64,000 nt of DNA from Schoenoplectus triqueter (Eukaryota; Streptophyta; Magnoliopsida; Poales; Cyperaceae): assembly GCA_964058805.1 (NCBI GenBank), contig CAXKVV010000152.1, positions 62,001 through 126,000 on the forward strand, given 5' to 3'. Both the position numbers and the translations under genes were made by a program. Shown here one piece after another: positions 2,683 to 47,680 of the stretch. The number at the start of each line of letters is the position of its first letter. The first letter of the stretch is position 1. The notes under the pieces were generated by a model. That model was not told where the DNA came from. It saw nothing but the letters and a program-made list of their open reading frames with translations, and ran no database searches.

Positions 2683-2705
2683 GCCGTTCGATCAAATCGA
2701 ACGGC
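2683..2705. repeat. Perfect 10-bp inverted repeat, 3-nt loop
   Basis: GCCGTTCGAT and ATCGAACGGC are separated by CAA. The same hairpin is kept in the right-hand copy at about 62910-62932. It lies in slightly GC-richer sequence with no gene that I recognise. Confidence 0.8.
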
Positions 2706-6806: not shown

Positions 6807-7437
6807 CTGATACATGACAATTTAACTAATTTATTCACAGTACAGATGCAGTATTCATGTTTTTGTCAAAAATTCTAATAGTCAAATATACAAAAATTAA
6901 ACTATATGTATTCCCTTAAAAAAAATATACATGCATGACTCTGTCATTTGTGCTAGCTAGCTAGATTGCAGTAAAGATAGTGCTATATAGATTGTCTAAT
7001 AGTGTTGGAGGTTGATCTAGTAAACATTTATGGAGTCAATGCGGCCTAGATTGCAATAATATGCTGGATTGTTGAATTTTATTTAGTAACCAAGTATTGT
7101 TGCCAACCAATTATTGGTTATTACATTAAATATTGTCTATAGGCTTTGTTTATGGTTCAGCTACCAGTTTTGTCTCTACTAATGGTTATACAAATTATAT
7201 GTTGCTAGAGACTTATTAAATTTGCGTTGTTGATTTGCATCCAATATTTGGTCCCCTCTCCCCAACCCCTCCTTCCAAAAGAAAAGAAAGGAATAGTTCT
7301 AACTTGGTTGGCATAGATACTGTTACTGAACTCTTTTTCAGTAAAATCATGTGCATAGATCTTTTTCCAAAAGTTCAAATTTTCATGTTGAATTATAATT
7401 TACTATTTTTTCTGCGCCAAAGGTTCACTGATTCTGC
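6807..7437. other. AT-rich spacer where 5' exons of the AP2 gene would be expected
   Basis: I looked on the minus strand for the first-repeat WRI1 sequence (the RHRWTGRFE-type motif and the VYL mini-exon) and did not find it. No other gene or repeat is recognised. Confidence 0.5.
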
Positions 7438-8760
7438 ACTATATATATATACTGAATAAAGCCCAGTAATATTGCGCTTATGTATGCTATACTATGACCG
7501 TCCCAGGTTTATTCTTTTCTACGTTGATGTTGGTATGCACACGATGTTACAAAGAAACTTCGGTGGTAGCAATTTGTGTGGCAGCTTTAAGATTAATTAG
7601 ATTGTTGAAGTAGCTACTAGCTAGAAAAGTTAACTACGCAAATATATATGCCGCCAGGAAACTAATTGAGGAAAAACTACCTGTCACACGTATCTGTCAA
7701 AACTATATGGCACACGTACCTGTCAAAACAACATTTTTTCTGAAAAATGAAGAAAATCTTGGTTCTTGACAAACCAGTTTTCAACAGAAATGAATTAGGT
7801 AGTTTATTCTCTTATTACATGTGACGAAGAACTAGAATTCCATGTGGAATTAAGGGATCTGCACAAGGGACAGATTGCTTACTAACAAGTTCTAAACAAC
7901 CAACGACAAAATCCATGTCCGTAATTACTTTTTGCTTTTCTTTTAAAGCGTTGCCTATAATCATTTCACAAAAAATGTATCAATTTGTGTCTATAAGATT
8001 AAAGATATACGTGCCTTTTATAATCAATATTAACCGACTATAATACTTCACTTGTTTTATAATTAAGTCGGTCAACTTTTTATAACGTATAAGAATTAAT
8101 CGCATGGCATTAGATGCCGTGGTTAGAAACTATGGTCAATTAAGCCATTGACTTGATTCAATTCAATACCGTAGAAAATCAAATGTATAGCAATTCAACT
8201 TTGAGTTTTCAAGTACATAATATCTTCTCCTGTTTAAGTCAAAAATGGACTCCTCCAATTTATCAAAGTTTCTGTAAAACAAACTTTGTAATCATTCATA
8301 TGTCATGTTTTATGACAACTATATAAATCTTTAGTTTTCTTGTGAACCAATAATTTCATAACATTAATATGTAATTCTGTAAAATTCAAATCATCGCTGA
8401 ATCATAAAATTATAAATGTGCATTCTAAGGATTAAAAATTACACCCTATATGACACATTAATGTCCAAAATATTTTAATCTAAATTTGATCACTATAATT
8501 TGAACATATAATTAACATTATCCAACAGTGCAAACTACTAAACATGATAATTAACTCAGTTCAACCATACTCCCTTGTGAAAGGACAGCAGAACCTATTG
8601 GCTAAGTAGAAAGGTGTGAGGAGATGAGTGGAAAATAGTAAAATACAGTAGATAAAAGATGTAATAATCCTAATCTCTATTTGTAAATCGCCTACTGGGC
8701 CTATACAGATCCAAAAAAAAAAAAGTTTAGAGCTATCCATTCTGTCAAGAAAGGGTTCTC
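7438..8760. repeat. PKS-upstream-like segment, uninterrupted copy
   Basis: Near-identical to the sequence at 42361-42968, 46371-46384 and 47681-48350, which lies upstream of the minus-strand PKS gene, but without the transposons that split that copy. A short part (about 7530-7645) recurs at 58285-58380. Parts are inverted at 18070-18262, 25400-25470 and 33650-33830. No PKS coding sequence is attached here. This segment keeps the empty sites of two CACTA elements near 8038-8053. Confidence 0.85.
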
Positions 8761-9010
8761 AATTGGGTGCTGACGTTCAATCTCATTTTTGTTGATCCGG
8801 TATTAATGTCTCTAACTAGTAGCTTTAACCTCATTTTACATCTTTTTCTAGTCACCATCGATCTCATTCAATTTATAATGATAATATTTGACGCTTAGTA
8901 CAAAAATGCTAATCAATATCAGCAGCTTTATGCCAGATAAGAAAAAAATAACATTAAAAATATCAGTACGAGAGTTATAAGAAAACTGACACTGATCGTC
9001 CATTTTTAGT
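8761..9010. repeat. Inverted copy of PKS-downstream sequence
   Basis: Reads as the diverged reverse complement of about 28060-28345 and 36600-36895 (shared words include ATAATTATAAA-type, GACACTGATCG and TCATTTTTGTTGA). It has no coding content. Confidence 0.65.
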
Positions 9011-9317
9011 ATTAAATTTCTTAGAAAACCAAAACAAATATTAATGTCGATTTGTTTTTATATATAAAAAAAAACTACGTTATTCATATCAGTGGTTGAT
9101 AAGAAAACAAGAAACGCTAAAATTGTTTTGCTAAAATCCTACTAACTGATATCTTGTATGGATCAAACAAAAATTTGAATATGAAACTATAACGTTTGGA
9201 GAAATGATAAAAATTCTCCTCATTATTAATAAAGAAACTATAACTTCTATGAAAATGAAGAAATTCTTGATTCTTGACAAACCAGTTTTCAAGAGAAATG
9301 ATTATCTTTTCCATGCG

Positions 9318-9830
9318 CACTACGGCAAAAAAAAAATCAGTAATGGTTATTTTTACCATTTAATAATGATTTATGGACCGTTATTGAATGGAGGGTTACT
9401 AAAACTATATAAAAACCGTTAAAAAATTGTGTGGCGTTCAAATCCTATCGGGGATCTTCAGTAACAGTTTTTATTTAAAAACCATTACTGAAATTTGGAG
9501 AATCAGTAACGATTTTTAAATAAAAAGCGCTACTAAACTGATTTTTTTTTTAAAAAAATTTCTAACGGTTTATTCAAAATAATCGTTACTAAAACTGATT
9601 TTTTTTATTTTTTTAAACACTTTTGGTAACTGTTATTATTAAATAACTATTACTATTTTTTTAAATAAAACTAAATTTAAATGAACTCTTAATTTTTTGA
9701 TAGTTTGAAATATTCATAATTTTTTACAATCCCCACAAACGAATTGTCTGATCATCTCTTCGGCTCATATCATCAATTGCGCAATCCATAAATTCCTCAA
9801 CACTTCTCATATATTCAAATTAGAATAAGC
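9318..9830. mobile_element. Truncated CACTA element with TNP2 N-terminal fragment
   Basis: Begins CACTACGGC and continues as the diverged reverse complement of the right end of the CACTA at 46385-47677, with subterminal AACGGTT/AACCGTT words. At about 9825-9735 the minus strand reads FEYMRSVEEFMDCA and DDMSRRDDQTIR. This matches the start of the TNP2 protein in the large CACTA (YLRGIDEFLECASEDM). No second terminus was found, so it is a fragment. Confidence 0.7.
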
Positions 9831-9935
9831 TAGGAATAAAACCCAATATTTAGATATCATATATCTCAAATATAAAAAATAATTAGAATAATAACAATGA
9901 TACTGATAACATTGAGAATTATAACAATATTGATG

Positions 9936-10001
9936 ATATGAATAATAATAATAATAATAATAATAATACACATATACATAATAATAATAATACACATATA
10001 C

Positions 10002-10034
<33 letters not shown>

Positions 10035-10035
10035 G
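9936..10035. repeat. AAT microsatellite
   Basis: Tandem AAT/ATA units interrupted twice by ACACATATACAT. The short poly-Asn and poly-Tyr frames here are products of the repeat. Confidence 0.95.
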
Positions 10036-10369
10036 CAATAAGAACTATGTGTGCGACCCTTTTTCGCGCGCTCCGCACCGTTGCGGGTGTTGGGATGCGA
10101 AAGAAGGACACATAACTCTCTCCCGAGCGTGCATTTATTTAGTGCCAGTTGAACTCACCGCTAAGACCCATTGGGATGCACATTCAGGGGGGTTTGTTGA
10201 TTGGGGGTCCTTTTAGATTCCGGTGGGTGCAAGCCCCACCGTTAATTACCATGGGCTACTAACCTCGAGTCACCTCTGGATCTCGAAAGGGGGAAGTAAA
10301 TATTATAGCTAAATGATAATCAAGTGGTCGAGTGGTCAAGTGCTTCGATGATGGGATCACTAAAGCACT
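10036..10369. other. GC-richer block, no gene recognised
   Basis: A sharp change to higher GC after the microsatellite, with words such as GGTGGGTGCAAGCCCCACC, which can itself pair. One strand resembles a tRNA D-arm near 10325, but there is no T-arm or acceptor. Function unknown. Confidence 0.4.
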
Positions 10370-12230
10370 CTAGACTTACTAACAAATCAGTTCAGTGAGG
10401 CAGGAATGACAGAGAAGATGAACTTATTAACAGATCAGTTCTATCTTCAGGGTACAGTATAAATTGAATCTACAAACAGATCGATTCAACTTATATAAAG
10501 TATTGGCAGACGAACTTACTATAGATCAGTACGGAGTTTTTAGAAACATATGAAAATGAACTTACAAACAGATCAGTTGAAATTCAAAATAGATAACAGA
10601 TGCAGATACAGATACATATGAACTTACTACAGATCAGTTCATTGAAATATATGATAAAGGTATAGATGAACATACTACAGATCAGTTCATGAATGCGGAT
10701 AAAAAGGATACAAGTGAACTTACTACAGATCAGTTCACAGATACAGATACAGTGTAAATTGAATCTACTAAAAGATCGACTCAACATACGTGGAATGCGG
10801 GCAGACAAACTTACTACAGATCAGTTCACTGATTGATGGCAGATACAGATGAACTTACTAATAGATCAGTTCATTCTTTAATAGAGAAAGATGAACCTAC
10901 TACATATTGGTTCAATCTTTATAGCTCCGAAAAACGATCTTACAAACAGATCAGATCAATCATTATGGAGGGATAGAAGATGAGTCTACTAACAGATCGA
11001 CTCAATCTTAATTGATCTAGAAGATGAACTTACTAACGTATCAGTTCAATCTTAACTAGTCAATGACCAATCACACAAAATACAACTCAAAACCCTGAGC
11101 TGGTTGATCTTGAGGTTGGTGAATCCGAAAATGGGTGGATATGGCACACTTGTTCATCATTTGATCTTCTAGGTCATGAATTTCAGACACTGAGCGGATT
11201 CATAAACCTAGAAAACACTCTTGCACACAAAGTCAAACATGAAGCGCTAAGTCAGTTCAACTTTGAGGCATGTGTGTTAGTGAATGAACCTACAAACAGA
11301 TCAGTTCGATTTCACTATTTAGAAGATGAACCTACTACAGATCAATTCAATCTTATGGCTTGAGAGATAAACTTACAAACAAATCAGTTCGATCTCATAG
11401 ACTAGAAGATAAACTTACAAATAAATCAGTTTAGTCTTGCTAGAATATCAAGTCATGAACAGTTGTTCAAGACATAGAGTCAATAGACAGTGGATATAGT
11501 CCCTACAGTTGTCTTACTTGACCTCATAAATCATGAATTCTAAGCACTTGGTCGATTCATGGATTCAGGGTTACCTTGTACACAAAATTAGACTCGGAGC
11601 TCCTGGCTGGTCTAATATTGAGATAGGTTTGTTAGAGAGTGAGCTTCTAGACAAACTAATTCAGTAGTCTAATATTGTGATGACTCATCAGTAGTCAACA
11701 AAGTGTATCACCACTTTATTAATCATTCATCATTTTAGGAATCATATAACGATTCAACGAATTGTTATAACGCTTTTGGAAGATAGTAGACCTGTTAGAG
11801 AGTTATTCAAATGATCAAAACGTTACCGACGTTCTGTAAAGTGTTCAACGTTTTAATGAATCATTGTAATGATTCAAAGAACCGTGATAACGATTCCTTA
11901 GAACACATAGACTTGTCAGAGAACAGTAAAAACGTCGCTAACATTTTGTAAAGCGTTCAATGCTTTGATGAATCGATATAACGATTCCTTATGCAAGGAC
12001 ACTAGTCCTTTTGTAAGGGATACTCACCATCCCTCATTTATATACTATCGACCTTGGGAGGCAACTTGTGCATTGATAAGTTCAGGGTTAGTTTGTACAC
12101 AAAACTAGACTCAGAGCTCATGGCTGGTCTAATATTGAGACATGATTATTAGAGAGTGAGTTTTAAGACAGTTCAGCTCAACTCTTCTAATCTAGTCAAT
12201 TATGTGGCTTACTAACAGATCAGTCCAATA
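10370..12230. repeat. Array of ~20 short inverted repeats with covarying arms
   Basis: Units about 40-50 bp apart contain a 6-7-base left arm, a spacer like TACTACAGATC or TACAAACAGATC, and a complementary right arm. Arm pairs include TTGAATC/GATTCAA (10464-10489), ATGAACT/AGTTCAT (10618-10642), GTGAACT/AGTTCAC (10714-10738), TGAACC/GGTTCA (10892-10914), TGAGTC/GACTCA (10981-11004) and TAAACT/AGTTTA (11410-11433). After 11450 the units thin out. The later part holds other palindromes (TGAATCATT-GT-AATGATTCA at 11857-11876) and a degenerate duplication (about 11560-11680 against 12090-12175). No coding potential. Its role is unknown; it may be the non-coding interior or subterminal region of an unrecognised mobile element. 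Confidence 0.8.
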
Positions 12231-15069
12231 TTTGTGCACCACTAGCTTTGGGAGGTAGCCAGTGCATTGATGATCGATGAATCATCAATCTCAGCATCAT
12301 GATGTCACTTCTTCAAACAACATAATGTTTTTCTCTGAAGTCATCACACTCACCGTGTTGATGTTACAGCCTCAGTTGTCTGCTTGACAAGCGTCAGAAT
12401 GTTCTTGTCATAACTGTTATTAATAAATTATTCTGAATGTTGCATTACTTGTGCAAAAATACTATATTACTCTACACCCCTTGTGTGAATTTGTTTAATC
12501 ACCTTTAAAATGTAAAAAAATATTGCATTTATTATTGACTTTTATTAATAAGATAATACATCTTATTATTGACTTTCTAAATCTCTTTATTTTTATAGAA
12601 ACTTACTTACAAAAATAATAGAAAATAGTTGGTTATTATTCAGAATTTTAGTTGGATTTTTAGGATTTTTATAATAGCCAAAAGAGCAAGTCAAATCTTG
12701 GTCAAACAGAAAAAGCAAACAAAGTCCTTTTACTTTTAAATTGTTTCAATACAATAAAATTACTAAAACTAAAATATTTTTACATAGAAAAATACTATGA
12801 AAAATAAAGAATTTTTAGAAATAAATTTAAGTCAATTTGGAGTTTAGGAAGGCATCCAAATGATTTATTTACTATTTTTTATTTTTTATTATTAATTGAG
12901 AGTTGGGATTTAACAGTTGTGCCAAGTTTAATTCTTTTTATTTCCTACAGATTGGGCCCTATCCTTGGAACTACGTATTAATTTTCTTTTCTCTTTTCAC
13001 TATTGGGCTCGAGTTTTATCCTTCTCTTAATTTCATGAATTGGGCCTAGATAATTTTCTCTTTCCACTATTAGGCATGGATTGATTGTTGTTATTTTGGG
13101 CCACCTCCATTTTACTTGAACCAACTTCGATCGTCGGATCAAAATAGAAGGTTGCGATGCCTCCGATTGAATTCTACTCGTGCGCACCCAGAGTCGTGTT
13201 GTCAGATCATTTCCTCTCTCTTGATCTTGGTTTTCTGAGATCTGCGTAGATAGGCTTCGCTGACAGTGTGAGTCACCGATTGGAGATCAGGCAATGGAGT
13301 CAGAATCGATTGAGTACGGTGAGTTTAGTGTCGGTCCTGTCAGACACCTAGCTTAGGATGTGTGGCAAGGAGTGATGCTTGTGATGCTCTAATTTGATCT
13401 AATTGAGAGATTCCAATGAATCTACTATCTATTGGTCAAATTATCTTCTTATCTTCTTCAGGGCCTTGATTGATCTTCTATTTTCCTTCTTTATTGCTAA
13501 AATTGGATCACCTGGCAGAGTTCTTTACTAATCTCACTGAATTCTCGGATCCAGGGAAAACAAGTGTATAGAGGTTGTGGAATGGATGTAATGAAATGGG
13601 GGGGCACTCAATTGCTGCCTAGGGTTTATATAGGGAGCTAGCAGTGGACAATCGTGTTTTTATTTCCCCCAATCTGTGTTTCCTGAATGCCATGAATTGT
13701 TGAAGTGACAATATCTCATCCCTCCATCCATCAAATGAATGGTGTAGATTGAGTCAATTTGTGTTTGTTGTGAGTGAATTCTGAGATTTGGATTGCCAGC
13801 GTGGCATTGTAATCACAGCTCAACCCTTCCCTACTCCCTCTTATTGAAACACCAAACGAATTAGCCTCTCTTACTGACTTTCAATCATGTACACCAACTC
13901 CACTATGAAGATCATGCAAAAGAGGCTTAACTTATGCCAGTAACCGCCTTAAAAGAATCATGGGACCCACACGATGTCCTCTGAACCATCAATTCGTCTC
14001 ATCACTCTTCAAAGCATCTGATTGAACTCTATACCCGATTTCTTTTCCCTTGAATGTGAGTGACTTATAGTGCAACCAAAAATAAATTGTTATAGAGTGT
14101 TCTCCTCACCGAGAGCTTTCGAACGGTATATTATTTGTCAAGTTTCGTTACTGATTGACCCTTTTGCCATTTTTTTCATTGGCTTTTGTTCAAAACCGGG
14201 TCAGCAAAGGGATAATTCACAGCAGCAGGGAAGGAGAGGGTTCTTCTGTCTATGTGGGGCCCGGTGGCAGCGACAAAAATGAAGAGGGAAGGGTAGTGCA
14301 TGTCGGTGGACTCGGTGTTCATGGATGACCCCACATATAATGATTAATGAGAGACAAATGAAATGGACCAAGTCCATTTAGTATTTCCTCTTTTCTTAAA
14401 CTCCTCTCCAACGCCATTTAGGTGTCTCTCTTATTTTTACCTCCGGTTTGCACCCAATGAAGTGTTGTCCCCAAGTTGCACCCACAAAGGTCTTTGATCA
14501 AATCCTAGCCTTCCAATTAGTCTGATTTTCTTCTTCGAATTGATTCTAATAGATATGTTCATTCAAAAATTATGAAATTTTCATCAAAGTTATCTAAATT
14601 CATGATGAACATCTCTGTATTTTTTAAATCCCAGATAAAACTCTGTTTTTCTCTTGAATAAATCCCAGATAAAACTTTGTTTTTCAATTGTAGCTCAGTG
14701 TCTCTACCAAATAAAATTCCTCCTTGCAGAAATCATCATAATTAAACACCAATTAGACTTGTATTGATATTTATTAAGGTTTGATTTGATCAACAGTTGA
14801 TTACTTATCAATAATTAATACAAATCCAGACTTGATCAGATGTTTGTAACATTGACACCTGATCAGTCTTATGAAATTGACTTTTAATTCACTTGTATGA
14901 AAGCAAAATCACAATCAAATTTTTTTGTGATTGGTTGTATCAAAATACTGGTTTGGCATTGACACAGTTCTTGTACAGGGATTGGATTGCTTCGGTTCTT
15001 AGGGTTTGCTTTGATGGTTTGATCTTGACTTTTCTCTTGAGTTTCTTCCTCCTGTCAGGGGTAGACACT
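12231..15069. other. Long non-coding stretch, no gene recognised
   Basis: AT-rich to about 12950, then moderate GC to about 14350, with several polypyrimidine tracts and GGGCC words (12954, 13000, 13043, 13100). It could be the body of an old non-autonomous retroelement, but I find no direct terminal repeats, primer site or domain. Short open frames carry no signature. Confidence 0.4.
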
Positions 15070-26431: not shown

Positions 26432-27771
26432 ATGGAAATTTTGAACGAGATACGTGAGGCACAGAGGTCTCAAGGAACAGCGGCAGTGCTCGCAATTGGC
26501 TCGGCGACTCCCTCTAATTTCATATACCAATCCCAATATGCCGATTATTTCTTTCGTGTTACGAAGAGCGAGCACCTTAAAGAACTCAAGCAGGAGTTTC
26601 AAAAAATATGTAAGCTAGAAATCCAACAAATTAACACACACATTCATAATAGAATTTTTACATCACGTACATGCATACATTAACACATTCACACATGCAC
26701 ATAACTAACATTAATTCATCATCCCAATTTATAGGTGATGACACAAAAATCAACAAACGTCACTTTCACCTCACGGAGGAAATGCTCAAAAAACATCCAA
26801 AAATAACTTCAAATAAGGATCAAGAATCACTTGATGCTCGACAAGACATAGTATTAGGTGCGGTGCCCAGGCTCGGCCTCATGGCGGCAGAGAAGGCTAT
26901 TAAAGAGTGGGGCCAGCCAAAGTCGAAGATCACCCACCTACTTTTTCACACCACAACAGGTAGTATTGACATGCCTGGTGCTGATCGTCAGATGGTGAGG
27001 CTCCTTGGTCTCTCTCCCTCTACCAAGAGGTCAATGATGTACCACCAGGGCTGCTCAGGTGGTGGCACGGTGCTCCGTCTTGCCAAGGATATAGCCGAAA
27101 ATACTCGAGGCACTCGTGTCCTTGTAATCTGCTCAGAGATTTCTCTGACAACCTTTCGTGGGCCATCTGAGGCGAACAAAGATACTCTTCTACCTCAAGC
27201 AATTTTCGGAGATGGGGCGGCTGCTGTGATTGTGGGAGCCCAGCCGGACCTATCAGTTGAGCGTCCTATTTTTGAAATCATTTCAGCATGTCAAACAATC
27301 CTTCCTGGCACAGAGGATGCAATGGTGGGACACATCAGACAAGACGGTCTCACATTACACATGTCACCTCTTGCACAAAAACATATCTCAAATAATATCA
27401 TAAGTATTCTTTCAGAGATCGTCGAACCACTCAGGATTATTACTGACTGGAATTCAGCCTTTTGGGCCATGAACCCAGGGTGGCCCACTATCCTAGAACA
27501 ATTGCAGTCAGATTTGGTACTTGACGAGGAAAAGCTTAAGGTGACGAGGCATGTGCTTGCCAATTATGGCAACATGATGAGTGCAACCATATTTTTCATG
27601 CTTGATGAAATGAGGAAGCAGTCGGCCGAAGAGGGAAAGGCATATGATGGACAATACGGTGTCCTTTTAGGATTTGGTGCAGGAATCACCATGGAGACTA
27701 CCATCTTGCGCGCCAATAAGTACAATGCGCGCAATTTCACTGAATCAGAGGATGACGTATGGACAATTTAA
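26432..27771 (+). CDS. Type III polyketide synthase (chalcone synthase-like), Cys-Asn-Asn variant
   Basis: Two exons, 26432-26609 and 26735-27771, encode 404 residues. The 125-base GT-AG intron splits the Cys60 codon, the position conserved in plant chalcone synthases. Such enzymes extend an acyl-CoA starter with malonyl-CoA in the cytosol. The catalytic Cys is present (YHQGCSGGG, Cys166), as are the gate Phe (QAIFGDG, Phe217) and Asn (NYGNMMSA, Asn339). The residue matching catalytic His303 of alfalfa enzyme is Asn306 (FWAMNPGW). The scaffold GFGPG reads GFGAG (372-376), and the gatekeeper Phe265 position is Leu267 (GLTLHM). The C terminus extends past the usual end ([12 protein letters not shown]). 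An AATAAA follows at 27792. It is probably not a chalcone synthase; whether it condenses at all is open. The frame is intact and about 94-95% identical to the inverted copy. Confidence 0.95.
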
Positions 27772-28706: not shown

Positions 28707-29115
28707 TGTTGAAAATATAAACTTAATTAATATTTTCTTGAATTTTGTTGTCTAGTCAATATAATTTAAGGCTCATTCATTAGGATTTAAAGCTCTTAAA
28801 GTCTAGTTTTTAATGGTGTAAGTTTCATGTCGATTGGAGTTTTCTAGAGAAAGTTATGACAGTTTTAATAGAGATAGGTCAGATTTGACTGGGCTGCTTA
28901 GTTTTCTGTTTTTATATTTATTACGAATTCTAGAGTTTTCTTTTGATGTTTTGGCTCTATAAATAGAGTTGTAATCTGTTGCTTTGCAAGACAATGCAAG
29001 AGAGATAATATAATAGAGAATTACAAAGAGTCTTTCAGATAAGAACTTGTTTATTTCCTCCATCTCTTCTCTCTACCACTATATGAATTGTATCCACTAT
29101 TAAATATACTCAACA
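28707..29115 (+). repeat. 5' LTR of the Copia element
   Basis: 409 bases. Differs from the 3' LTR by roughly 20 substitutions by eye and lacks a ~46-base segment that the 3' LTR has at about 33259-33305. Contains TATAAATAG (about 28960), a plausible promoter. Confidence 0.92.
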
Positions 29116-29118
29116 AAT

Positions 29119-29130
29119 TGGTATCAGAGC
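29119..29130 (+). other. Primer binding site (initiator tRNA-Met type)
   Basis: TGGTATCAGAGC, three bases after the 5' LTR, is the standard plant Copia complement of the initiator methionine tRNA 3' end. Confidence 0.9.
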
Positions 29131-29131
29131 C

Positions 29132-32100
29132 ATGGCCAATAACGGTGCAACCATTGGAGGTGTCGGGCATGTATCATGCTTGCGACTTTCAAAGACCAAC
29201 TACGAAAATTGGTGCTTACACATGAAGGCGCTACTCGGCTCGCAAGATGTGTGGGAAGTCGTTGAGATTGGCTATACCGAACATGTGACCTTGCAAGGCT
29301 TGACGAATAATCAAGTGAAAGAGTTGAAGGAGTCACACAAGAAAGATAAAACCGCGCTCTACTTGATGTACCAGGCGGTTGATGAGTCAGACTTTGAGAA
29401 GATAGCCGGTGCGAAGACTTCAAAAGAAGCATGGGAGACTCTTGAAAAGGCATACAAAGGAGCGGACCGAGTGAAGCAAGTTCGCTTACAAACACTTAGA
29501 GGTGAGTTTGAAACTTTAAGAATGAAAGGGTCGGAAGGTGTATCGAATTATATCACACGGGTAGAAATGGTGGTGAACCAACTCAAAAGAAATGGTGAAG
29601 AGATAAGTGAAAATATAGTAGTAGAAAAAATATTAAGGTCATTAACTAATGATTTTGAGAATGTTGTGTGTGTCATAGAAGAGTCTAAGAATTTAGCAGA
29701 AATGACGGTGGATGAGCTCTCAAGTTCCTTAGAGGCACATGAACAAAGAAAGAAAAATAAGAAGCAAGAGGTGTTAGATGAAGCACTTCAAACTAAGGTA
29801 ACACTAAAAGAAGATAAGCTGAGAAACGGTGAAGGTGGTCGTGGAAGAGGCCGTGGTGGCTTTAGAGGTCGAGGTAGAGGCCGCGGTAGAGGCCGTGGTA
29901 AATGACAAGAAGAGAACAAGGAAGAGAAGAACCAATCGATCTCATACGGCGGAGGCCGAGGTCGAGGAAGAGGAAGATCAAGTAAGTACAATGTTCAATG
30001 TTACTCTTGTAAAAAATATGGTCATTATGCAGCGGAGTGTTATTACAATGAAAAGAAAGATGATGAGAAAAAAGAAGAGAAAGGATGTGATGGTGTGGTA
30101 TTACTAGCAAGCAAGGAGGCTGACTCCAACAACGAGTCAGTGTGGTATTTGGATACCGGTGCAAGCAATCATATGTGTGGCTACAAGCACATGTTTACCA
30201 AGATAGAGGATATTGTAGAAGGCCATGTATCATTTGGAGATGCCTCAAAAGTGAAAGTTAAAGGCCAAGGTGAAATTCTTATTCAGTGTAAAGAAGGAAA
30301 TGAGAGGTTTCTCTCTAATGTTTATTATGTGCCGGATATGAAGAGTAATATTTTGAGTTTGGGACAATTGTTAGAACGTGGTTACACGGTTTTTATGAAA
30401 GAAAGAACACTTTATTTGAGAGACCAAGATAATCGGTTGCTAGCCCAAGTAGAAATGACCAAAAACCGCATGTTTAAGTTGAATTTGGTGAATGTTCAAG
30501 CAAGGTGTTTAAAGGCATGTGTAGAAGATATGACTTGGTTGTGGCATTTACGGTTTGGACATCTTAATTTTGGTGCTTTGAGGCAATTATCAAATAAAAG
30601 AATGGTGAAAAATATACCACACATAGACCATAGTGATAAATTGTGTGAAGGCTGCGTGTTAGGAAAGCACCCAAGGAATTCTTTTCCAAAAGAAGCAAGT
30701 TATCGTGCAAAGAAGGTGTTTGAATTGGTTCATACCGATATTTGTGGTCCAATAACCCCTAATTCACTTGGTAAACACCGGTACTTTATTACCTTTATTG
30801 ATGATTTTTCTCGAAGAACTTGGATATATTTTTTAAAGGAGAAATCTGAAGCTTTTTTTTATTTTTAAGAAGTTTAAGGTGCTTGTTGAAAACTTAAATG
30901 GTGAATGCATAAAAACTTTGAGATCCGATAGAGGCGGTGAATTTACATCAAAGGAGTTTGTGAATTTTTGTGAACAAAAATGTATTAGAAGGTTCTTAAC
31001 AGCCCCTTATTCACCTCAACAAAATGGAGTGGCGGAATGAAAAAATCAGACCATACTCGACATGGTTCGAAGCATGTTAAAGAGCAAAAATATGCCGAAG
31101 GAATTTTGGGCTGAAGCGGTGAGGTGTGCAGTTTACTTGCAAAATCGATGTCCTACGGCGAGTTTAGAGAATATTACCCCACAAGAAGCATGGTGCGGTG
31201 TGAAGCCATCAGTAGCTCATTTGAAGGTGTTCGGAAGTGTGGCTTATGCTCACGTTCCAGATCAAAAGCGCACAAAACTTGATGACAAGAGCAAGAAGCT
31301 AATTTTTATAGACTATGATGAGAAATCTAAGGCGTACAATCTTTATGATCCGCTTACTAAAAAGGTACATGTGAGTTGTGATGTGCAGGTCAATAAAGAA
31401 AGCATGTGGAATTTGAGTTTCATAGAAGAGATGTCTCATGAAGAAGGAAAAGAAGCGACATCAACAATTATCTCTACACCGACAAGCACAACTACATCGA
31501 CAATATCACAAGCCGAACCATCTTCACCTTTATCCGATGATGAAGATAAGCCAAGGACACCAAAGACAAGGAATTTGCGAGAAATATACGAGGTGACAAG
31601 TGAATTACATTTGGTGTGTCTTTTGGCGGATGCGGAGGACATCACATTTGAGCAAGCCGTAAAAGATGAAAAGTGGCAAGCCGCTATGCAAGAGGAGATG
31701 AAAGCAATTGAGAAAAATGACACTTGGGAACTTGCGACGTTGCCCAAGGGTCACAAGCCGATTGGTGTTAAATGGGTTTATAAGAAAAAGATGAATGTGC
31801 AAGGCGAGGTTGAAAGATACAAAGCAAGATTAGTGGCGAAAGGGTACAAGCAAAAGACGGGGATTGATTATGAAGAGGTATTTGCCCCGATAGCAAGAAT
31901 GGAGACAATCCGACTACTAATCTCGTTGGTAGCTCAAAATAAATGGAGCATTTTTCAAATGGACGTGAAATCGGCGTTTCTAAATGGAGTGCTTGAAGAA
32001 GAAGTCTATATCGAGCAACCTTCCGGTTATGTGAAAGTTGACAAAGAGCACATGATGTTGAAGTTAAAAAAGGCGTTGTATGGGTTGAAGCAAGCGCCAA

Positions 32101-33167
32101 GGGCATGGAACACTCGAATTGATGCATACTTCAAGGAGCATGGGTTTGTGCAATGCTCATATGAGCACGCGCTATATTTGAAGGTACAAAAAGATGATAT
32201 TTTATTTGTGGCCTTGTATGTAGATGATTTGATTTTTACGGGAAATAATAGAGATATGATTGAGAAGTTTAAGTTGGAAATGACAAAAGAGTTTGAGATG
32301 ACCGATTTTGGTCTCATGTCTTATTTTTTGGGGTTAGAAGTGAGACAAGAAAATTCTGAAATTTTTGTTTCACAAAAAGCATATGCAAAGGAGATTTTAA
32401 AGAAGTTTAAGATGGATGAATGTAATCCCGTAAATACTCCGGTTGAGAGTGGGACGAAATTGTCTCGATATGATGAAGGAAAGACGATTGACGCAACACT
32501 ATATAGAAGCTTGGTTGGAAGCTTGCGTTATTTGACGTGCACAAGGCCGGATATTGCTTATGGAGTTGGCTTGGTGAGCCGATATATTGAGGAGCCGAAA
32601 ATGACGCATTGGAAAGCCATAAAGCGAATTATTCGCTATGTCAAAGGTACATTATCTCATGGCTTATTTTATTCTCATACTAATGAGTTTGATCTTATTG
32701 GATATTCTGATAGTGATTGGAGTGGAGATTTAGATGATCGGAAGAGCACTTCGGGTTTTGTGTTTTTCATGGGAAGCACGGCATTTACATGGCTCTCTAA
32801 GAAGCAATCTATTGTTACTTTGTCCACATGTGAAGCGGAGTATGTTGCTGCATCTTCTTGCGTATGTCACTCTCTTTGGCTACGCAAGTTACTAAAGGAG
32901 ATTAACTTTTCTCAAGAGAAGGCGATGAATATTCGAGTGGATAACAAGTCGGCAATTGAGTTGGCGAAAAATACGGTGCATCATGAAAGGAGCAAGCACA
33001 TAGATGTGTGTTTTCAATTCATACGAGAACATGTGAAGAATGGCGATGTAGAGATGACTCATGTGGCAAGTCGTGATCAAGTGGCGAACATATTCACCAA
33101 ACCACTATCGGCAGAACTGTTCAACAAGTTCAAGAAGTTGCTCGGGATGCAAGCCAGAAATAATTAA
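29132..33167 (+). pseudogene. Copia gag-pol polyprotein, interrupted three times
   Basis: The start ATG is at 29132. The gag part has a UBN2-type core (TNYENWCLHMKALLG) and an RG-rich tail. A TGA stop lies at 29903-29905. The same frame then continues with a CCHC knuckle (CYSCKKYGHYAAEC) and the protease motif DTGASNHM. The integrase HHCC region (HLRFGHL ... CEGCVLGK) and core (HTDICGP) follow. An extra T in the T8 run at 30853-30860 shifts the frame. A second TGA is at 31038-31040, inside the integrase. From 31062 the frame is open through reverse transcriptase (YVDD in [11 protein letters not shown]) to RNase H (SDSDWSGD), stopping at 33165-33167. Inactive as a whole; the RT-RNase H part is intact. 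Confidence 0.93.
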
Positions 33168-33170
33168 GTT

Positions 33171-33180
33171 TAAGAAGGGA
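33171..33180 (+). other. Polypurine tract
   Basis: TAAGAAGGGA immediately before the 3' LTR, the expected plus-strand primer position. Confidence 0.75.
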
Positions 33181-33636
33181 TGTTGAAAATATAAACTTAA
33201 TTAATATTTTCTTGAAGTTTGTTGTCCAGTCAATATAATTTAAGGCTGATTCATTAGGAATTTGGACAGACCATCCGAACTTTGTTTTAGGTATATGAGC
33301 TATGGATTTAAAGCTCTTCAAGTCTAGTTTTTAATGGTGTAAGTTTCAAGTCGATTGGAGTTTTTTAGAAAAAATTATGACAGTTTTAATAGAGATAGGT
33401 CAGATTTGACTGAGCTGCTTAGTTTTCTGTTTTTATATTTATTACGAATTCTAGAATTCTCTTTTGATGTTTTGGCTCTATAAATAGAGTTGTAATCTGT
33501 TGTTTTACAAGACAATGCAAGAAAAATAATATAATAGAGAATTATAAATAATCTTTCAGATAAGAACTTGTTTATTTACTCCATCTCTTCTCTCTACCAC
33601 TATACGAATTGTATCCACTATTAAATATACTCAACA
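33181..33636 (+). repeat. 3' LTR of the Copia element
   Basis: 456 bases, TGTTGAAAAT to CTCAACA, followed by the target duplication CTTTT. The ~46 extra bases at about 33259-33305 against the 5' LTR begin and end at short microhomology, so a deletion in the 5' LTR is the simplest reading. Confidence 0.92.
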
Positions 33637-40036: not shown

Positions 40037-41375
40037 TTAAATTGTCCAGACATCATCCTCTGATTCAGTGAAATTGTGCGCATTATATTTATTGGCACGT
40101 AAGATGGTAGTCTCCATGGTGATTCCAGCTCCAAATCCTAAAATGACACCATACTCTTCATCCAATGCATTTCCTTCTCCAGCCAACTGCTTCCTCATTT
40201 CATCAAGCATGAAAAATATGGTTGCACTCATCATGTTGCCATAATCGGCAAGCACATGCCTCGTCACCTTCAGCTTTTCCTCATCAAGTGCCAGATCTGA
40301 CCGCACTTGTTCGAGGATAGTGGGCCACCCTGGGTTCACGACCCAAAAGGCTGAATTCCAGTCAGTAATAATCTTGAGTGGTTCGACAATCTCTGAAAGA
40401 GTACTAATGATGTTATTCGAGATATGTTTTGGTGCAGGAGGTGACATGTGCAATGTGAGACCGTCTTGTCTGATATGTCCCACCATTGCATCGTCTGTGC
40501 CAGGAAGGATGGTTTGATATGCTGAAATGATTTCAAAAATAGGACGCTCAACTGACAAGTCCGGCTGGGCTCCCACAATCACAGCAGCCGCCCCATCTCC
40601 GAAAATTGCTTGAGGTAGGAGAGTATCTTTATTCGCCTCAGATGGCCCACGGAAGGTTGTCAGAGAAATCTCTGAGCATATTACAAGGACACGAGTACCT
40701 TGAGTATTCTCAGCTATATCCTTGGCAAGACGCAGCACCATGCCACCACCCGAGCAACCCTGGTGGTACATCATTGACCTTTTGGTAGAGGGAGAGAGAC
40801 CAAGGAGCCTCACCATCTGACGATCCGCGCCAGGCATGTCAATACTACCTGTTGTGGTGTGAAAAAGTAGGTGGGTGATCTTCGACTTTGGCTGGCCCCA
40901 TTCTTTAATGGCCTTCTCTGCTGCCATGAGGCCGAGTCTCGGCACTGCACCTAACACTATGTCTTGTCGAGCATCAAGTGATTCTTGATCTTTATTTGAA
41001 GTTATTTTTGGGTGTTTTTTGAGCATTTCCTCTGTGAGGTGAAAATGACGTTTGTGGATTTTTGTGTCATCACCTACAAATAAGGATGAAGAATTAATGT
41101 TACTTATGTGCATGTGCGAATGTGTGAATGTGTGATGTACGTGATGTAAGAAATCTACTGTGAATGTGTCTGTTAATTTGTTGGACTTCTGGCTTACAGA
41201 TTTTCTGAAACTCCTGCTTGAGTTCTTTAAGGTGCTCATTCTTCGTAACACGAAAGAAGTAATCGGCATATTGGGATTGGTATATGAAATTAGAGGGAGT
41301 AGCCGAGCCGATTGCGAGCACTGTCGCCGTTCCTTGAGACCTCTGTGCCTCACGTATCTCATTCAAAATTTCCAT
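40037..41375 (-). CDS. Type III polyketide synthase, inverted second copy, Cys-Asn-Asn variant
   Basis: Exon 1 is 41375-41198 and exon 2 is 41073-40037, with a 124-base GT-AG intron in the Cys60 codon; the protein is 404 residues. It is about 94-95% identical to the plus-strand copy. Changes include M for T after CSGGG, V-V for A-M just before the key Asn, and several in the loop before GFGAG. It shares the unusual residues: Cys166 (QGCSGGG), Asn306 in place of the catalytic His (FWVVNPGW; codon at 40334-40336), Asn339 (DYGNMMSA), GFGAG, Leu at the gatekeeper position and the C-terminal extension to VWTI. A 441-residue open frame that starts out of frame in exon 1 and reads through the intron is not the real product. 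No defect is visible. Confidence 0.95.
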
Positions 41376-41565: not shown

Positions 41566-41841
41566 AAAAGAAATGTCATGAACTACACATACAGTGACTG
41601 ATGTAAAACAACAATAAATATGAGAAGGCAGTTTTTTTTTCTTGAATTGTGAACGGAACCCTAGAAAAAGGCAGTTATTTTGACACAAGCACAAAGATGG
41701 TAATTAAGAGCATTACGGTAACACAACAACAAATTTGCTAAGTTCGTTTATATATGGTGAGTAGTGACACAACGACAAACATGATAAGATTGCTAGGTTA
41801 CTAAATATATTCATGGTAACACAACAACGCCAAAATAATAC
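41385..41841 (-). other. Probable 5'UTR intron of the second PKS gene
   Basis: On the gene strand the donor is CCAAAG|GTATTATTTT and the acceptor TCAAACAG|GAGAAGCAA, ten bases before the ATG. It contains a TA microsatellite at about 41526-41561. It matches the candidate intron of the first copy at the donor and in overall position. Confidence 0.5.
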
Positions 41842-41968
41842 CTTTGGAACGACAGGTATAGTAAATATTGTTGGATCAGATGTTTGTTTCAAACGAAACA
41901 CACGGATGAAAAATGTGTGTTATTGGTTTGCTTTCAGTATGTGTGAGTAGCGAGAGGTATACGAAGGG

Positions 41969-41976
41969 TTTAAATA
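41969..41976 (-). promoter_or_regulatory. Probable TATA box of the second PKS gene
   Basis: TATTTAAA on the gene strand within the stretch conserved with 25900-25935 of the first copy. It lies about 128 bases upstream of the splice donor. Confidence 0.5.
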
Positions 41977-42335
41977 GAAGAAGTGAAGAATACACTGCAA
42001 TTCAAATGATGCAAATTCAATGAATGTCGCATGCATTCAACGGGTGCCACGTTGCTGTTTTCAATTCTATTAACGGTACATCGATATTTCCATGGCCAGT
42101 CAAACACAAGTTCAACACTTGATTAATTTATTCAGGATCTGTTGGCTTAAATATCTTGCACGGCCTCCATCCGTAAGTTACAATTCAAAATGCTGTTTGA
42201 TGACTCTATGCATATAATTGAGCTGCTCGATCAATTTTAATGTAACTCAGTAATCCACATGCCAATAAAAAAAAATACTAACGAAGCATTTTTGGTAGTT
42301 CTCACGTATACCTTGTAGTGCTGGTCATTTTTCTG

Positions 42336-42337
<2 letters not shown>

Positions 42338-42371
<34 letters not shown>

Positions 42372-42968
42372 TGAATAAAGCCCAATAATATTGCGCTTAT
42401 GTTTGCTATACTAAGACCGTCCCAGGTTTATTCTTTTCTACGTTGATGTTGGTACGCACACGATGTTACTAAGAAACTTCGGTGGTAGCAATTTGTGTGG
42501 CAGCTTTAAGATTAATTAGATTGTTGAAGTAGCTACTAGCAAGAAAAGTTAAGTACGCAAATATATATGCCGCCAGGAAACTATTTGGGGAAAATCTACC
42601 TGTCATGTCACACGTATCTGTCAAAACTATATGGCACACGTACCTGTCAAAAACAACAATTTTTATGAAAAATGAAGAAAATCTTGGTTCTTGACAAACC
42701 AGTTTTCAACAGAAATGAATTAGGTAGTTTATTCTATTATTACATGTGACGAAGAACTAGAATTCCATGTGGAATTAAAGGATCTGCACAAGGGACAGAT
42801 TGCTTACTAACAAGTTCTAAACAACCAACGACAGAAATCCATGTCCGTAATTACTTTTTATCTTTTCTTATAAAGCGTTGCCTATAATCATTTCACAAAA
42901 ATTGTATCGATTTGTGTCTATACGATTAAAGATATGCGTGCCTTTTATAATCATTATTAACCGGCTAT
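42338..42968. repeat. PKS-upstream segment, part 1 of the interrupted copy
   Basis: A TA microsatellite, then a close match to 7440-8040. It continues after the first CACTA at 46371-46384 and after the second at 47681-48390. Confidence 0.88.
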
Positions 42969-45900
42969 CACTACAACATAAATCAGTATTTAACAGTGAT
43001 TTTTTGGGGTCATTAACAACGATTCTACAACCGCTGTTATTGATCATGCTGCTAATTTATATAAATAACCGCTGTAGAAAAGGGTGCTTTGAGTTAAATT
43101 TGTGTATAAATCAATAGCGGTTATTAGCAGAAAACCGCTGCTAACATTACGTCTCAACAGCGGTTATATATAAAAAACCGCTGCTAACATTTATTTAGCA
43201 GCGGTTATTTACAAACAACCGTTGTTGTTCTCGACTCAACAACGTTTTTTTATAAATAATATATGTTAGCAGTAGTTTTTTTGTAAATAACTGCTATTGA
43301 GGCGTAATGTTAGTAGCGGTTTTCTGCTAATAATCGTTGTTGATCTTAAAAAAATTTGGGTTTATTTTATTTTCTGTGACTAGCTCACATGCTAGCCATA
43401 TAGAATTTCATTCATCGAATTCACACACATACAATCGATACAATAATCAATTCTATTCAATAAATAATTCACACAGATATAAGACACACATACATAAATA
43501 TAAATTAAAACATAACATAAATAATCACAACAAATGTATACATCACACCACAAAAAGTATTGCATATATCCAACAAACATTAAAGTATCTCGTACAATCT
43601 CAGAATATAGACTTCAAAAATTCTACCAGTTTACCTGCTGGAGATCCTCAGGCGGCAAAGACACAAATGATCTGAGAGACTGCAAAAAGTAAAAACATAC
43701 ATGGTTAGTAATTTTATAATCCTAGGGTAAATGAACGAAACTAATTAAGTAATTATTATCTTACAAATTATACCTTTGGAAGATCTGTCACCGGGTCCAT
43801 ATGCTTTAGGATTATGTCAATCATGTTTCGCATGACATAATACCCACACTCACCAGTGCCCTTACTTGGACTCTAATACAGGAAAAAATTAATTTGAATA
43901 ACCCTATAAGTAGTGATTAATTAATAAGTTTAGCAAATCCTTAAAGAAATTTGTTTATCATTCCGTAATATGTCGAAACTGTAATATACGCAATTGTCAT
44001 GCATATCTATTATTGCCCTTGAGTTGCCAATAATGTCGTGTTGCACTGAAATCAAATTAAATCAAGTGATTAGTAAATTAATAAATAAGTATGCATATAA
44101 TTTATAATCAATTACAAAAAAATATATGTTTCCAAATGATATCTGAGAACTAAATCAGATGGATTCAACAGATAGTTCAAAGAGTCAACATAATGAACAA
44201 TCTTTTTCTCAAATGACACAATCAGAAGAATTAAATGTGATCTACAATTAAAGTTATCATCAGCAATATATAAAGAAAGCTTGGACAAATAAAAACATGA
44301 TTGTATAAGTAGATTACTAATTATGGATACTTAAGTTCATTATTACCCGGTACAATAAGGCGCTAAGATGTAATAGTGAGGCTTTACTATCCCGGCAATT
44401 AAGATGAGATACTTGGTCGCCCCCTCCGAGTACAAATCGAGACTCATTGTGCAGATAACTTTTGGATCCATAAATAAAAACTTATCGCTTACCAAGAATT
44501 TATCCAACTTGTCCTTGCAATACCTGCATACATTTGTATAACACAGCTATGATATCACTAACTATATTTGACTAAGTTATTAGATTTGGAAGTACGTACA
44601 TGCACCATATCTGCATGATCTGAATGCCGAGCCACTCATTCTTGTCGACCTCCATGATGTCCGTCAACCTAAGAGCAATGAGCTTCTGATAGTCCTCATG
44701 GTTGAAAAGCCCCTTTTTGTAATTTATCTCCCAAGAAGTGCAGGGTTGCCCCATAAGCATCCGGTAAAGGTTGTGGTATGGCTTAGGTAATCCGGACATT
44801 ACTTTATCTAGAATTATCGGTGGCATCTCAACATTTGACCCTACACTTGGTGCCTTTGTCGCATCCTTCCTCTTCGCCGCACGTACCGGCTTCTCAAAGG
44901 TATTCTCCTACGCATAATAATGTATTGGTTAGCTAGTGCGGGTTTGAAGTAAAAAATAAGTTAGTATAAATATTATATGATACCTGGCCGGGAATTTTCT
45001 CTGCTTTCATACTCAAAGGACACAACATTCTTCTCGCCCTATACGTCGACTCGGGTAACTCATTTTTTTCTGAGAGCATTTCTCATAAAAGATCGAGCAA
45101 GGAGTCAAAACTCTTGTCACTTCATCCATTTTTTTCTTCAAATTATACAATTTAAAAGTAGCAGTCATTTTTGAAAATTTTATACAACCGAGAAATAAGG
45201 GTATGTTTTTTTCCATAATCAAAGTTCCAAACAATCCAGGAGTATCAGCAAAATTAGGCTCAACATGATCAGTCATCATTTCATCTAGTTTATCATTAAT
45301 ACACTGATCATCAAAATTTTGTACATTAATTTTAGTATTTTCAACCACTTCTTCCCGCACATCAGAACTTGAATCTACATCTACTGCATTATCATCACTA
45401 TTAGTGTTTGGTACTGTCCTGATAGGCCATACAATATTGCACGTGTCTTCCTTGGACTCTCCGTGCTTCACCCATTGAGTGTAACCCAACACAAACCCAC
45501 GAGCAATCAAGTGACCTAAGAATATTCTGGCAATCAATGCAAGGGCACAGGATAGAACGAGCAGCATGATAAGCATCATTTATATATTATATTCAATTAG
45601 GGTTTTATCTCATCCCTATCGGATTAATCTCGAACGGGTACCGACCTAAAATAGTTTAAGTAACAGTATAATATTTGGTTTCTACAAGACTATTTCTAAT
45701 CATGAAATGCACTAATTAACACATAATATAATACAAATTAAAAATACTAAATTAATTTTTCCTTTTTATTAGTTAAAGTTCAAGTGTCGACCTTAAATCA
45801 GATTGCCACTCCGAACCGCTGTCGCTGCCGCTCTGAACCGTTGTCGCTGCTTTTTCGTACCGCTGTCCTTATCGCTCTGACCCACTACCTCTCTCGCTAC

Positions 45901-46367
45901 ATCTTGTTTTTGATCCCGCTCTCGGAGATGGATGTAAATAGATGGAACAAGTTAAATAAGAAAGAGAGACCATTTTTTTGAGTTTGGGAAGTTGTTGGAC
46001 GAGCTGAATAAATTGAGCTCGTTAATGGTGTTGGTGCTGGCGGTTGTAGGGTTCTAGAACGAGTGAGAGAGAGAGGCTTATATATATATATATAGGTTTA
46101 ACAGCGGTTATTACAAATAAACCGCTGCAAAATAATATTTTACAACGGTTGTACAGGAAAGCCGCTGTAGAATGCAAAGATTTAATGGTGGTTATTACTA
46201 AATAACCGCTGCTAATTTTTTAACACAGTTATTTAGTAATAACCGCTATTAAATCTTTACATTCTACGGTGGTTTTAATTTTAAAACCGCTGTAAAGTTA
46301 ATTTAGCAACAGCTCTTTCAAAAAACCGCTGTAAACGTGCGTTGTTAAATCCCTTATTCTTGTAGTG
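42969..46367. mobile_element. CACTA element 1, TSD TAT
   Basis: Starts CACTACAAC, ends TTGTAGTG, and is flanked by TAT (42966-42968 and 46368-46370). The uninterrupted counterpart at about 8036-8042 has a single TAT. Subterminal regions consist of AGCGGTTAT and ATAACCGCTG words, often in palindromic pairs. A minus-strand coding remnant of transposase and Ulp1-like protein is inside. At 3.4 kb it is an internally deleted derivative. Confidence 0.95.
43770..45579 (-). pseudogene. Deletion-fused TNP2 N terminus and Ulp1-like C terminus
   Basis: From 45579 the frame reads HLIARGFVLGYTQWVKHGE, matching the TNP2 N-terminal domain of the big CACTA (HLIRRGFMDRYTRWVRHGE). It continues through PLFLGCIKFSKMTATFKLYN. 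A frame change follows near 45050 (ESTYRARRMLCPLSM in another frame). After a GTATC donor-like site at about 44985 the next pieces belong to the other CACTA gene: GLPKPYHNLYRML and DKNEWLGIQIMQIWCM (44826-44572). At about 43865-43800 comes the protease cysteine motif GECGYYVMRNM. The TNP2 catalytic core is missing. This looks like an internal deletion that joined the two transposon genes. Confidence 0.7.
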
Positions 46368-46370
46368 TAT

Positions 46371-46384
46371 AGTACTTCACTTGT
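46371..46384. repeat. 14-base host remnant between two CACTA insertions
   Basis: AGTACTTCACTTGT corresponds to AATACTTCACTTGT at about 8041-8054. It links the two insertions and ends with the TGT target duplication of the second. Confidence 0.9.
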
Positions 46385-47677
46385 CACTACAACGAAAGGG
46401 ATCTTTGCTAACACTCAATTACTAATGGTTTATTAAGAAAAACCTTTAGCAGAGAAGGTAAGGTCAATGGTATTTTGGTAATATTTGATAATATTTTGAT
46501 AACGGTTATAAATAAATGTGTTACTGAAAAGTGTGTTTTTCGGATATTTTTTCGGCGGAACTTTTAATAACGATTTTTTTTTTAAAAAACCGTTATTAAA
46601 TATAAAAGATCAATAACGGTTATTGTTTAACAACTGTTATTGATTGTTTCAGTTATAATTTCTGAGTATAAACCGTTATTAAAAGTTTCTAACCCTAGCA
46701 CTGCATATTTCTAGGGCGTCTATGCTCAGTCTTTGTTGTTTGTTCTATTCTCCACCAATGATATTTGCTCCCACGGATTGTGAGATATTTTCATCTCACC
46801 GTTCGTTCATTCTAATCCAGCGATCCAAAAAATAATTTTTAAAAACTAAAATTCCACAGATTACTAACCCCTTTCATCTATTTTCATATATAAAATGAGA
46901 TGGGAGAGAGAGATAGAGAGAAGAGATCAAATAGAAGAAATAAAAATCGAAATTTGATCATCTCAAGTTCAAATAGCCATAAATTTTGATAGGAAACTCC
47001 GATTGATGCATGTTACATGGCCACGAAAAGCTCATAACGAGGTCTACAGCCATTACTACCATTTCGGGGCCAAAAAATCTCATCCTGACCTTCAAAAACG
47101 CATTTGAATTTTTTTTCTCTTCTTTTGTGTTTTGTTTCTGTTTTTTTCTTATAAATTGTATAATTTTTCATATTATTGCATGAGCAAGATATACGTATTG
47201 TTGAGTAAATATTTTTTTCATTTGATGAATAATTATATTTCTTTCATATTAATTATTGAATGAATAAATAATATATTATATTATTGTTCTTAGTTATTTA
47301 ATCTCTTTTCTTTCAATATTTTAGTTCAAGAACGTTAAAAAAAATAATATTTTGTTTTATTTAAAAAAATAGTAACAGTTACCAAAAGTGTTTAAAAAAT
47401 AAAAAAAAATAGTTTCAATAACGGTTATTCTGAATAAACCGTTAGAAAAGTGTTTAAAAAATAAAATAAAAAATCTGTCTCAGTAACGATTTTTATTAAC
47501 AACCATTATTGATTATAATAGTTTCAGTAACGGTTTTTAATAAAAAATCGTTACTGAATGTTAACAAAGCGCAACGCAATTTAATAACGGTTCTTATAAG
47601 TTTTAGTAACCTCTCATTCAATAACGACTCATGAACCGTTATTAAATGGTAAAGAATGTTTTTTTTTTGCTGTAGTG
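46385..47677. mobile_element. CACTA element 2, non-autonomous, TSD TGT
   Basis: Starts CACTACAACG, ends GCTGTAGTG, and is flanked by TGT (46382-46384 and 47678-47680). The related segment at 8.05 kb has one TGT and no insert. Subterminal repeats are AACGGTTATT/AATAACCGTT in both orientations. The centre (46730-47330) has a TATATAAAA box and GA-rich leader but no transposase, so it looks like the promoter and 5' end of a transposon gene left after deletion. Confidence 0.95.
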
Positions 47678-47680
47678 TGT

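Follow-up and report, generated by a model that had tools for sequence, protein, structure and literature searches.

Two genes in the analysed window (64,000 nucleotides of a Schoenoplectus triqueter contig) belong, by sequence and predicted fold, to the chalcone synthase (CHS) superfamily and to a clade in which the catalytic histidine, His303 in alfalfa CHS2 numbering, is replaced by Asn. This substitution accompanies many other changes to the protein, concentrated in the CoA tunnel and the pocket, and the genes of the clade in this genome still code for protein under selective constraint.

Structure of the Two Genes in the Window

Gene 1, on the plus strand, consists of exon 1 at 26432..26609 (Met1 through the first nucleotide of codon 60), a GT-AG intron of 125 nt at 26610..26734 (GTAAGC...TTATAG) and exon 2 up to the stop at 26735..27771, which holds most of both CHS domains. 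Gene 2, on the minus strand, has exon 1 at 41198..41375, a GT-AG intron of 124 nt at 41074..41197 and exon 2 to the stop at 40037..41073. Both spliced models are open products of 404 aa from two exons, free of internal stops, and they differ at 25 of the 404 residues and at 83 nucleotides of coding DNA, 58 of them at third positions; the introns are identical at 109 of 125 alignment columns. The spliced gene 1 protein matched the Pfam families PF00195 (E 4.2e-97, 324.4 bits) and PF02797 (E 3.5e-43, 147.6 bits), both above the cut-off of 27 bits, and thus carries the CHS/STS domains.

The AAC codon of Asn306, equivalent to His303 of CHS2, is located at 27472..27474 (+) in gene 1, within the motif FWAMNPGW, and at 40334..40336 (-) in gene 2, within FWVVNPGW. 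The other two triad residues are kept: in gene 1 the nucleophile Cys166 (CHS2 Cys164) is encoded at 27052..27054 (+) and Asn339 (CHS2 Asn336) at 27571..27573 (+). The original prediction of two 404-residue frames, with AAC at these codons and with Cys166 and Asn339 intact, was therefore confirmed in the spliced models.

Copies in the Genome

The prediction spoke of two copies, a number that the genome search raised to nine full ones. When exon 2 of gene 1 was searched as DNA against the whole 82-Mb assembly, there were at least 12 matches, at least nine of which were full length, with 92–100% identity. Six of the nine full copies are located on the contig of the window (C149), two on C271 and one on C199. 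The C149 copies alternate in orientation, three in each, a layout consistent with three units of approximately 50 kb with one convergent pair each. AAC stands at the codon in question in every one of the nine. Eight copies have an open frame with intact start, splice sites and stop, whereas the ninth (C271:149 kb) is a pseudogene whose exon 1 is shifted by one base and whose exon 2 is interrupted by a stop. The three weaker DNA matches were the CHS pair of this plant on C1201 and a piece of 143 bases on C614.

The Pfam search of the genome also recovered the C1201 CHS pair and a further PKS on C1950, all three with His303; the C1950 protein we take to be LAP5/6-like. The genome had 23 PF02797 matches, 14 of which are accounted for by the nine copies, the CHS pair and the C1950 gene; the nine others, which were left uncounted, comprised two pieces too short to include position 303 and seven matches in longer frames. 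Two of these seven (L023 and L030) were read and are presumably ketoacyl-CoA synthases.

Clade with Asn at Position 303

A protein search covered 5.77 billion sequences; among the matches listed (best 120 of 1608), the closest ones of normal length came from five clusters with 77–90% identity, namely P0003, P0004, P0005 and P0008 (JGI, unnamed) and P0006 from Rhynchospora pubera, and the remaining matches listed had at most 60% identity. All five have Asn at position 303. A search with a profile of the clade found no further members among its best 120 of 1761 matches, and a protein search restricted to the motif region returned five matches, the same five clusters, with no new member. In a tree of 41 rows, whose bootstrap was not fully settled and in which many other forks were unresolved, the 10 sampled rows with Asn formed one clade with a support of 100/100 on a stem whose length was 1.27 changes per site, and the CHS pair of this plant grouped with the R. 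pubera CHS (support 87/94), which fits a sedge as the probable host. Searching for Asn at the His303 position and building a tree, as had been proposed, thus resulted in a single clade with five public clusters.

P0004 (407 aa, contig of 1412 bases) and P0005 (409 aa, contig of 1600 bases) continue without a break across the intron site, which suggests either spliced transcripts or intronless genes, and P0003 begins within the intron, as unspliced DNA would. The JGI clusters and P0006 have Asn303, His130, His161, Met338 and the C-terminal tail motif in common with the genes described here; the literature searched contained no report on the function of any of them. P0006, named "chalcone synthase-like protein", was the only named clade member outside this genome among the matches listed. 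Public databases label it "chalcone synthase" or "chalcone synthase-like", though it lacks His303; as a description of function the label is probably mistaken, the protein probably making no chalcone, which is a caution for annotators.

The alignment used for the counts below comprised 153 rows: 14 clade rows, CHS2 as the ruler and 138 others. The latter were the nearest relatives among the matches listed (best 120 of 1608 and of 1761), nearly all CHS/STS, together with the two CHS and the LAP5/6-like PKS of the same plant, so that distant type III PKSs are outside the count; P0001, P0002 and P0007 (679–698 aa) were excluded for length out of 143 proteins. Position 303 was Asn in 14/14 clade rows and His in 138/138 other rows. 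A slip of the alignment at the motif was considered and rejected, as the motif is ungapped and the closest clade insertion lies upstream, after CHS2 position 291. A scan of the genome_contigs collection for a bacterial control for His303 turned up no relative. The invariance of Asn303 by itself is weak evidence because the clade shows no variation at 203 of 323 positions.

Rebuild of the CoA Site and the Pocket

Counted with the pseudogene omitted, and with P0003 omitted before position 63 where it reads intron, 54 of the 252 positions conserved in at least 95% of 137 others were lost clade-wide, 35 of them to one new residue. Among 13 positions that we take to shape the active site, 11 were conserved and seven of these were lost (P 0.002). 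A second list, the ligand-site positions predicted by software for two CHSs and given in the available part of PMC5491003, overlaps with the first and is thus not an independent test; here 13 of the 27 conserved positions were lost in the clade (P 0.001).

The available text on the switchgrass CHS structure (PMC11172311) gives three basic and four hydrophobic contacts, which were mapped by an offset of three, on our own reading, to positions 55, 58, 62, 210, 214, 267 and 271. At five of the seven, no readable clade row kept the conserved residue (P 0.006 compared with 54/252 overall), and positions 58 and 62 were each lost in 10/11 readable rows. Lys55 was kept in none of 11 readable rows and replaced by Glu or Asn in all 11; position 58 was Arg in one and Lys in eight of 11, while position 62 was Lys in one and mostly Asp in the others. 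The basic CoA-phosphate site Lys55/Arg58/Lys62 of a functional type III PKS is, therefore, not present in the clade. The hydrophobic contacts have become Leu (210), Ile (214), Met (267) and Ala or Met (271), and Lys55, Leu267, Val271 and Gly306 are absent from every readable member, with position 306 changed from Gly to Trp, Phe or Met in 13/13 rows. In the GFGPG loop the GFG is kept, and Pro375, present in 138/138 others, is Ala in 13/14 clade rows and Thr in the pseudogene. In the pocket, positions 338, 265, 375, 165, 194 and 196 are all altered, with Ser338 replaced by Met and Phe265 by Leu.

Two new histidines appear at positions 130 and 161 in 14/14 clade rows: His131 of gene 1 (26947..26949, +; CHS2 position 130), a clade-specific residue at a position that is Cys in 137/138 others, and His163 (27043..27045, +; CHS2 position 161), where the others have Gln in 134/138 and His in one. 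Gene 1 also has one-residue insertions after CHS2 positions 87, 134 and 291. At the very C-terminus, after a variable linker, a tail of the form DD[VA]W[TI][IL] was present in 14/14 clade rows and 0/139 others; it reads DDVWTI in both gene 1 (27751..27768, +) and gene 2 (40040..40057, -). A conserved tail behind a variable linker may be a docking peptide. The original prediction had seen the Asn, but neither the coordinated changes nor the clade-wide tail.

A number of residues typical of the superfamily persist. Cys164, Asn336 and Glu192 were found in 14/14 clade rows, Thr132 in 13/14 and the gatekeeper Phe215 in 13/14, with Leu in P0004. Met137, which reaches into the active site of the partner monomer, was kept in 14/14.

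An AlphaFold2 model of P0004, built from a 59-row alignment, had a mean pLDDT of 77.7, with low confidence at 208–216 and in the tail. Its best PDB matches in Foldseek were plant type III PKSs, with TM-scores over the 50 rows listed of 0.84–0.86 by query length and 0.86–0.92 by target length; the rice, switchgrass and barley chains scored near 0.85 (query) and 0.88–0.90 (target). The thiolase fold of the solved CHSs is thus predicted to be kept in the clade.

Comparison with Known Systems

The clade genes share with alfalfa CHS2 and the CHS pair of this plant the two Pfam CHS domains, the predicted thiolase fold, Cys164, Asn336 and, mostly, Phe215, and, as judged by eye, their first intron interrupts a Cys codon close to position 60, like that of the CHS genes of the plant. 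They differ from CHS in having only approximately 60% identity, Asn for His303, replaced residues in the CoA tunnel, the pocket and the loop, and a new tail; the CHS genes of the plant (L033 and L032 on C1201) also seem, by eye, to have a second intron before GISDWNS, in contrast to the genes with Asn. Since His303, the CoA-phosphate site and Pro375 are all lacking, the clade was not filed as a functional type III PKS.

KS-beta, or chain-length factor, of bacterial type II PKS is a partner subunit with a ketosynthase fold that has lost catalysis. It belongs to a different PKS type and lost the Cys rather than the His; it could serve as a model for a putative partner role in the present case. 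CHIL, a non-catalytic relative of chalcone isomerase which binds CHS and corrects its products, as described in the available part of PMC11172311, provides an analogy only, as it descends from chalcone isomerase and not from CHS.

The closest precedent for the residue itself is engineered. According to the accessible portion of a review (PMC6274091), substitution of His303 in alfalfa CHS by Ala, Asp, Asn or Thr abolishes malonyl-CoA decarboxylation, and substitution by Gln does not. The H303N mutant has the same residue at the same position, albeit as a single laboratory change in a normal CHS, whereas here the change is natural, clade-wide and joined by dozens of further ones. There is precedent for CHS relatives that have lost triad residues: rice OsCHS19, 26, 27 and 31 are described, in the part of PMC7312121 available, as CHS family members without more than one triad residue, in contrast to the loss of the His only, and in copies under purifying selection, found here. 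The passages available from other sources describe the triad as highly conserved in all maize CHSs (PMC4783895), conserved in the 30 type III PKSs compared in a study of Senna tora (PMC10003783), kept in the divergent barley diketone synthase CER-C (PMC4861019) and shared by type III PKSs in general (PMC8133574). No recognisable report of a natural His-less type III PKS appeared in the literature searched, which included work on sedge and Rhynchospora PKSs; this agrees with the earlier statement that no characterised plant member has Asn at this position, albeit such searches cannot prove absence.

Proposed Function

The lineage-specific clade would have arisen from a gene of the chalcone synthase type and changed much along its stem; its copies in this genome are now under purifying selection. 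Its protein has lost the His needed for malonyl-CoA decarboxylation together with much of the site that holds CoA, and we infer that it would be unable to carry out the iterative condensation with malonyl-CoA that CHS performs. The H303N precedent, together with the altered CoA site, makes normal polyketide synthesis unlikely. The protein would instead act mainly without catalysis, through the rebuilt pocket, with His130, His161, Met338 and Leu265, and the conserved tail, which may be a docking peptide; it would either bind a phenolic or acyl ligand or pair with a working PKS or another enzyme of a pathway. Such a non-catalytic role, in ligand binding or as a partner, is our first choice, held at a little short of an even chance; judged from the sequences, a Cys-based enzyme independent of CoA would come second and a residual PKS third.

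Several observations weigh against a non-catalytic role. Cys164 and Asn336 are kept in 14/14 rows, which a pure scaffold would not need. This weighs little between enzyme and scaffold because much of the conserved sequence is kept anyway: of the 219 conserved positions between 63 and 385, at least one of 13 clade rows keeps 168 and all 13 rows keep 124. A base could instead come from the two new histidines found throughout the clade. V210L, L214I, L267M and the change of Arg58 to Lys are conservative, and the Thr that replaces Cys341 in the clade is also found in the LAP5/6-like PKS of this plant, which has His303.

A repurposed enzyme is the strongest rival, although we regard it as rather unlikely. 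It would use Cys164 as the nucleophile with His130 or His161 as the base, or with none, on a substrate that bypasses the CoA tunnel, as a thioesterase, an acyltransferase or a lactone hydrolase might. The full retention of Cys164, Asn336 and Glu192, with Thr132 lacking in a single row, the two new histidines and the six altered pocket positions all fit this explanation; the retention of the Cys, however, is no higher than expected for a conserved site.

Distinctly less probable is a protein that still works as a PKS, either slowly or on an atypical extender or starter, perhaps by condensing without decarboxylation or with Asn303 serving only as an oxyanion-hole donor. The overall predicted fold, the intact Cys and Asn of the triad and a basic residue (Arg or Lys) at position 58 in 9/11 readable rows are compatible with it. 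Against it stand the loss of malonyl-CoA decarboxylation in the alfalfa H303N mutant, as given in the accessible portion of PMC6274091, the replacement of Lys55 by Glu or Asn in all 11 readable rows and that of Gly306 by Trp, Phe or Met in all 13. Of the three roles originally put forward, the single-step condensation has consequently become the least likely in view of H303N and the altered CoA tunnel, while the hydrolase and the partner role remain candidates.

Common to the non-catalytic and the Cys-based alternatives would be a CHS fold that became independent of CoA, the His and the CoA site being dismantled together and a new pair of histidines and a docking tail being acquired before the expansion to nine copies; this course of events is plausible, and we propose it tentatively. 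If it is true, and as far as searched, this would be the first natural His303-less lineage of type III PKS selected for a non-polyketide job, either as a partner of a working PKS resembling a chain-length factor or as a new Cys-based enzyme. Such a lineage, natural, selected and present in several copies despite lacking the His, would demonstrate that plants can put the fold to other uses, and the clade would serve as a natural experiment on the functions of His303 and the CoA site.

Selection versus Decay

The pairwise NG86 dN/dS among the eight open copies was 0.11–0.23 for pairs with dS > 0.05, and four methods gave approximately 0.11–0.17 for gene 1 against gene 2; these estimates are pairwise and within the genome, with the stem branch outside them. 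In neutral simulations of five pairs, amino-acid changes as few as observed or fewer occurred in 0 of 2000 runs in four pairs and in 1 of 2000 in the fifth. Together with the eight open copies out of nine, this bears out the view that the genes are kept by selection and not in simple decay, and for none of the pairs with dS > 0.05 did the ratio come near 1.

A decaying family, in which the frames would be recent leftovers from tandem or segmental duplication of a dead gene among transposons, could draw on the location of the genes in duplicated, transposon-bearing DNA, on the one pseudogene among the nine and on the near identity of several recent duplicates, but it is at odds with the low dN/dS, the neutral simulations, the open full-length relatives P0004, P0005 and P0006 at 77–78% identity and the common C-terminal motif, and being very improbable it can be regarded as already largely refuted. 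An assembly or sequencing error at the Asn codon has a negligible probability, with AAC in 9/9 genomic copies, including the pseudogene, and Asn in 5/5 database clusters from other sources.

Surrounding DNA

A Pfam scan of 10 of the 46 ORFs (≥95 aa) of the window for a partner gene revealed nothing biosynthetic, the domains above cut-off in these 10 being exclusively of the transposon type (tnp2, Pol_BBD, gag_pre-integrase); the unscanned ORFs and short exons could still conceal such a gene. Between the two genes, at 28707-33636 (+), lies a Copia-type retrotransposon with three reading frames, whose ends of 0.4 kb (28707-29115 and 33181-33636) are 85% alike; its middle frame carries the Pol_BBD and gag_pre-integrase domains (Pfam), and the reverse-transcriptase frame was recognised by eye. 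A tnp2-type transposon occupies 53810-57120 (-), with Pfam Transposase_21 (E 1.2e-24) in the scanned piece 55972-56757. The segment 44992-45285 is 72% like it, and a sub-threshold transposase-associated match was present in 45016-45579. At 4572-6825 (-) there are exon-like pieces, two of four with a sub-threshold Pfam AP2 match (E 0.022 and 0.079), which presumably resemble a transcription factor of the WRINKLED1/ANT type and may represent a gene or a relic.

The two ends of the window, 1-3783 and 60184-64000, form a direct repeat of 3.8 kb, 97.4% identical and approximately 60 kb apart, which may mark the edges of a tandem unit with the gene pair. A second convergent pair is present at C271:147-167 kb (L058-L060), with its genes only approximately 4 kb apart and the plus-strand copy being the pseudogene. 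The DNA downstream of this locus matches 41802-48356 (86–92%) and 8053-13276 (96.5%) of the window, and the locus may show the arrangement that existed before insertions separated the gene pair of the window.
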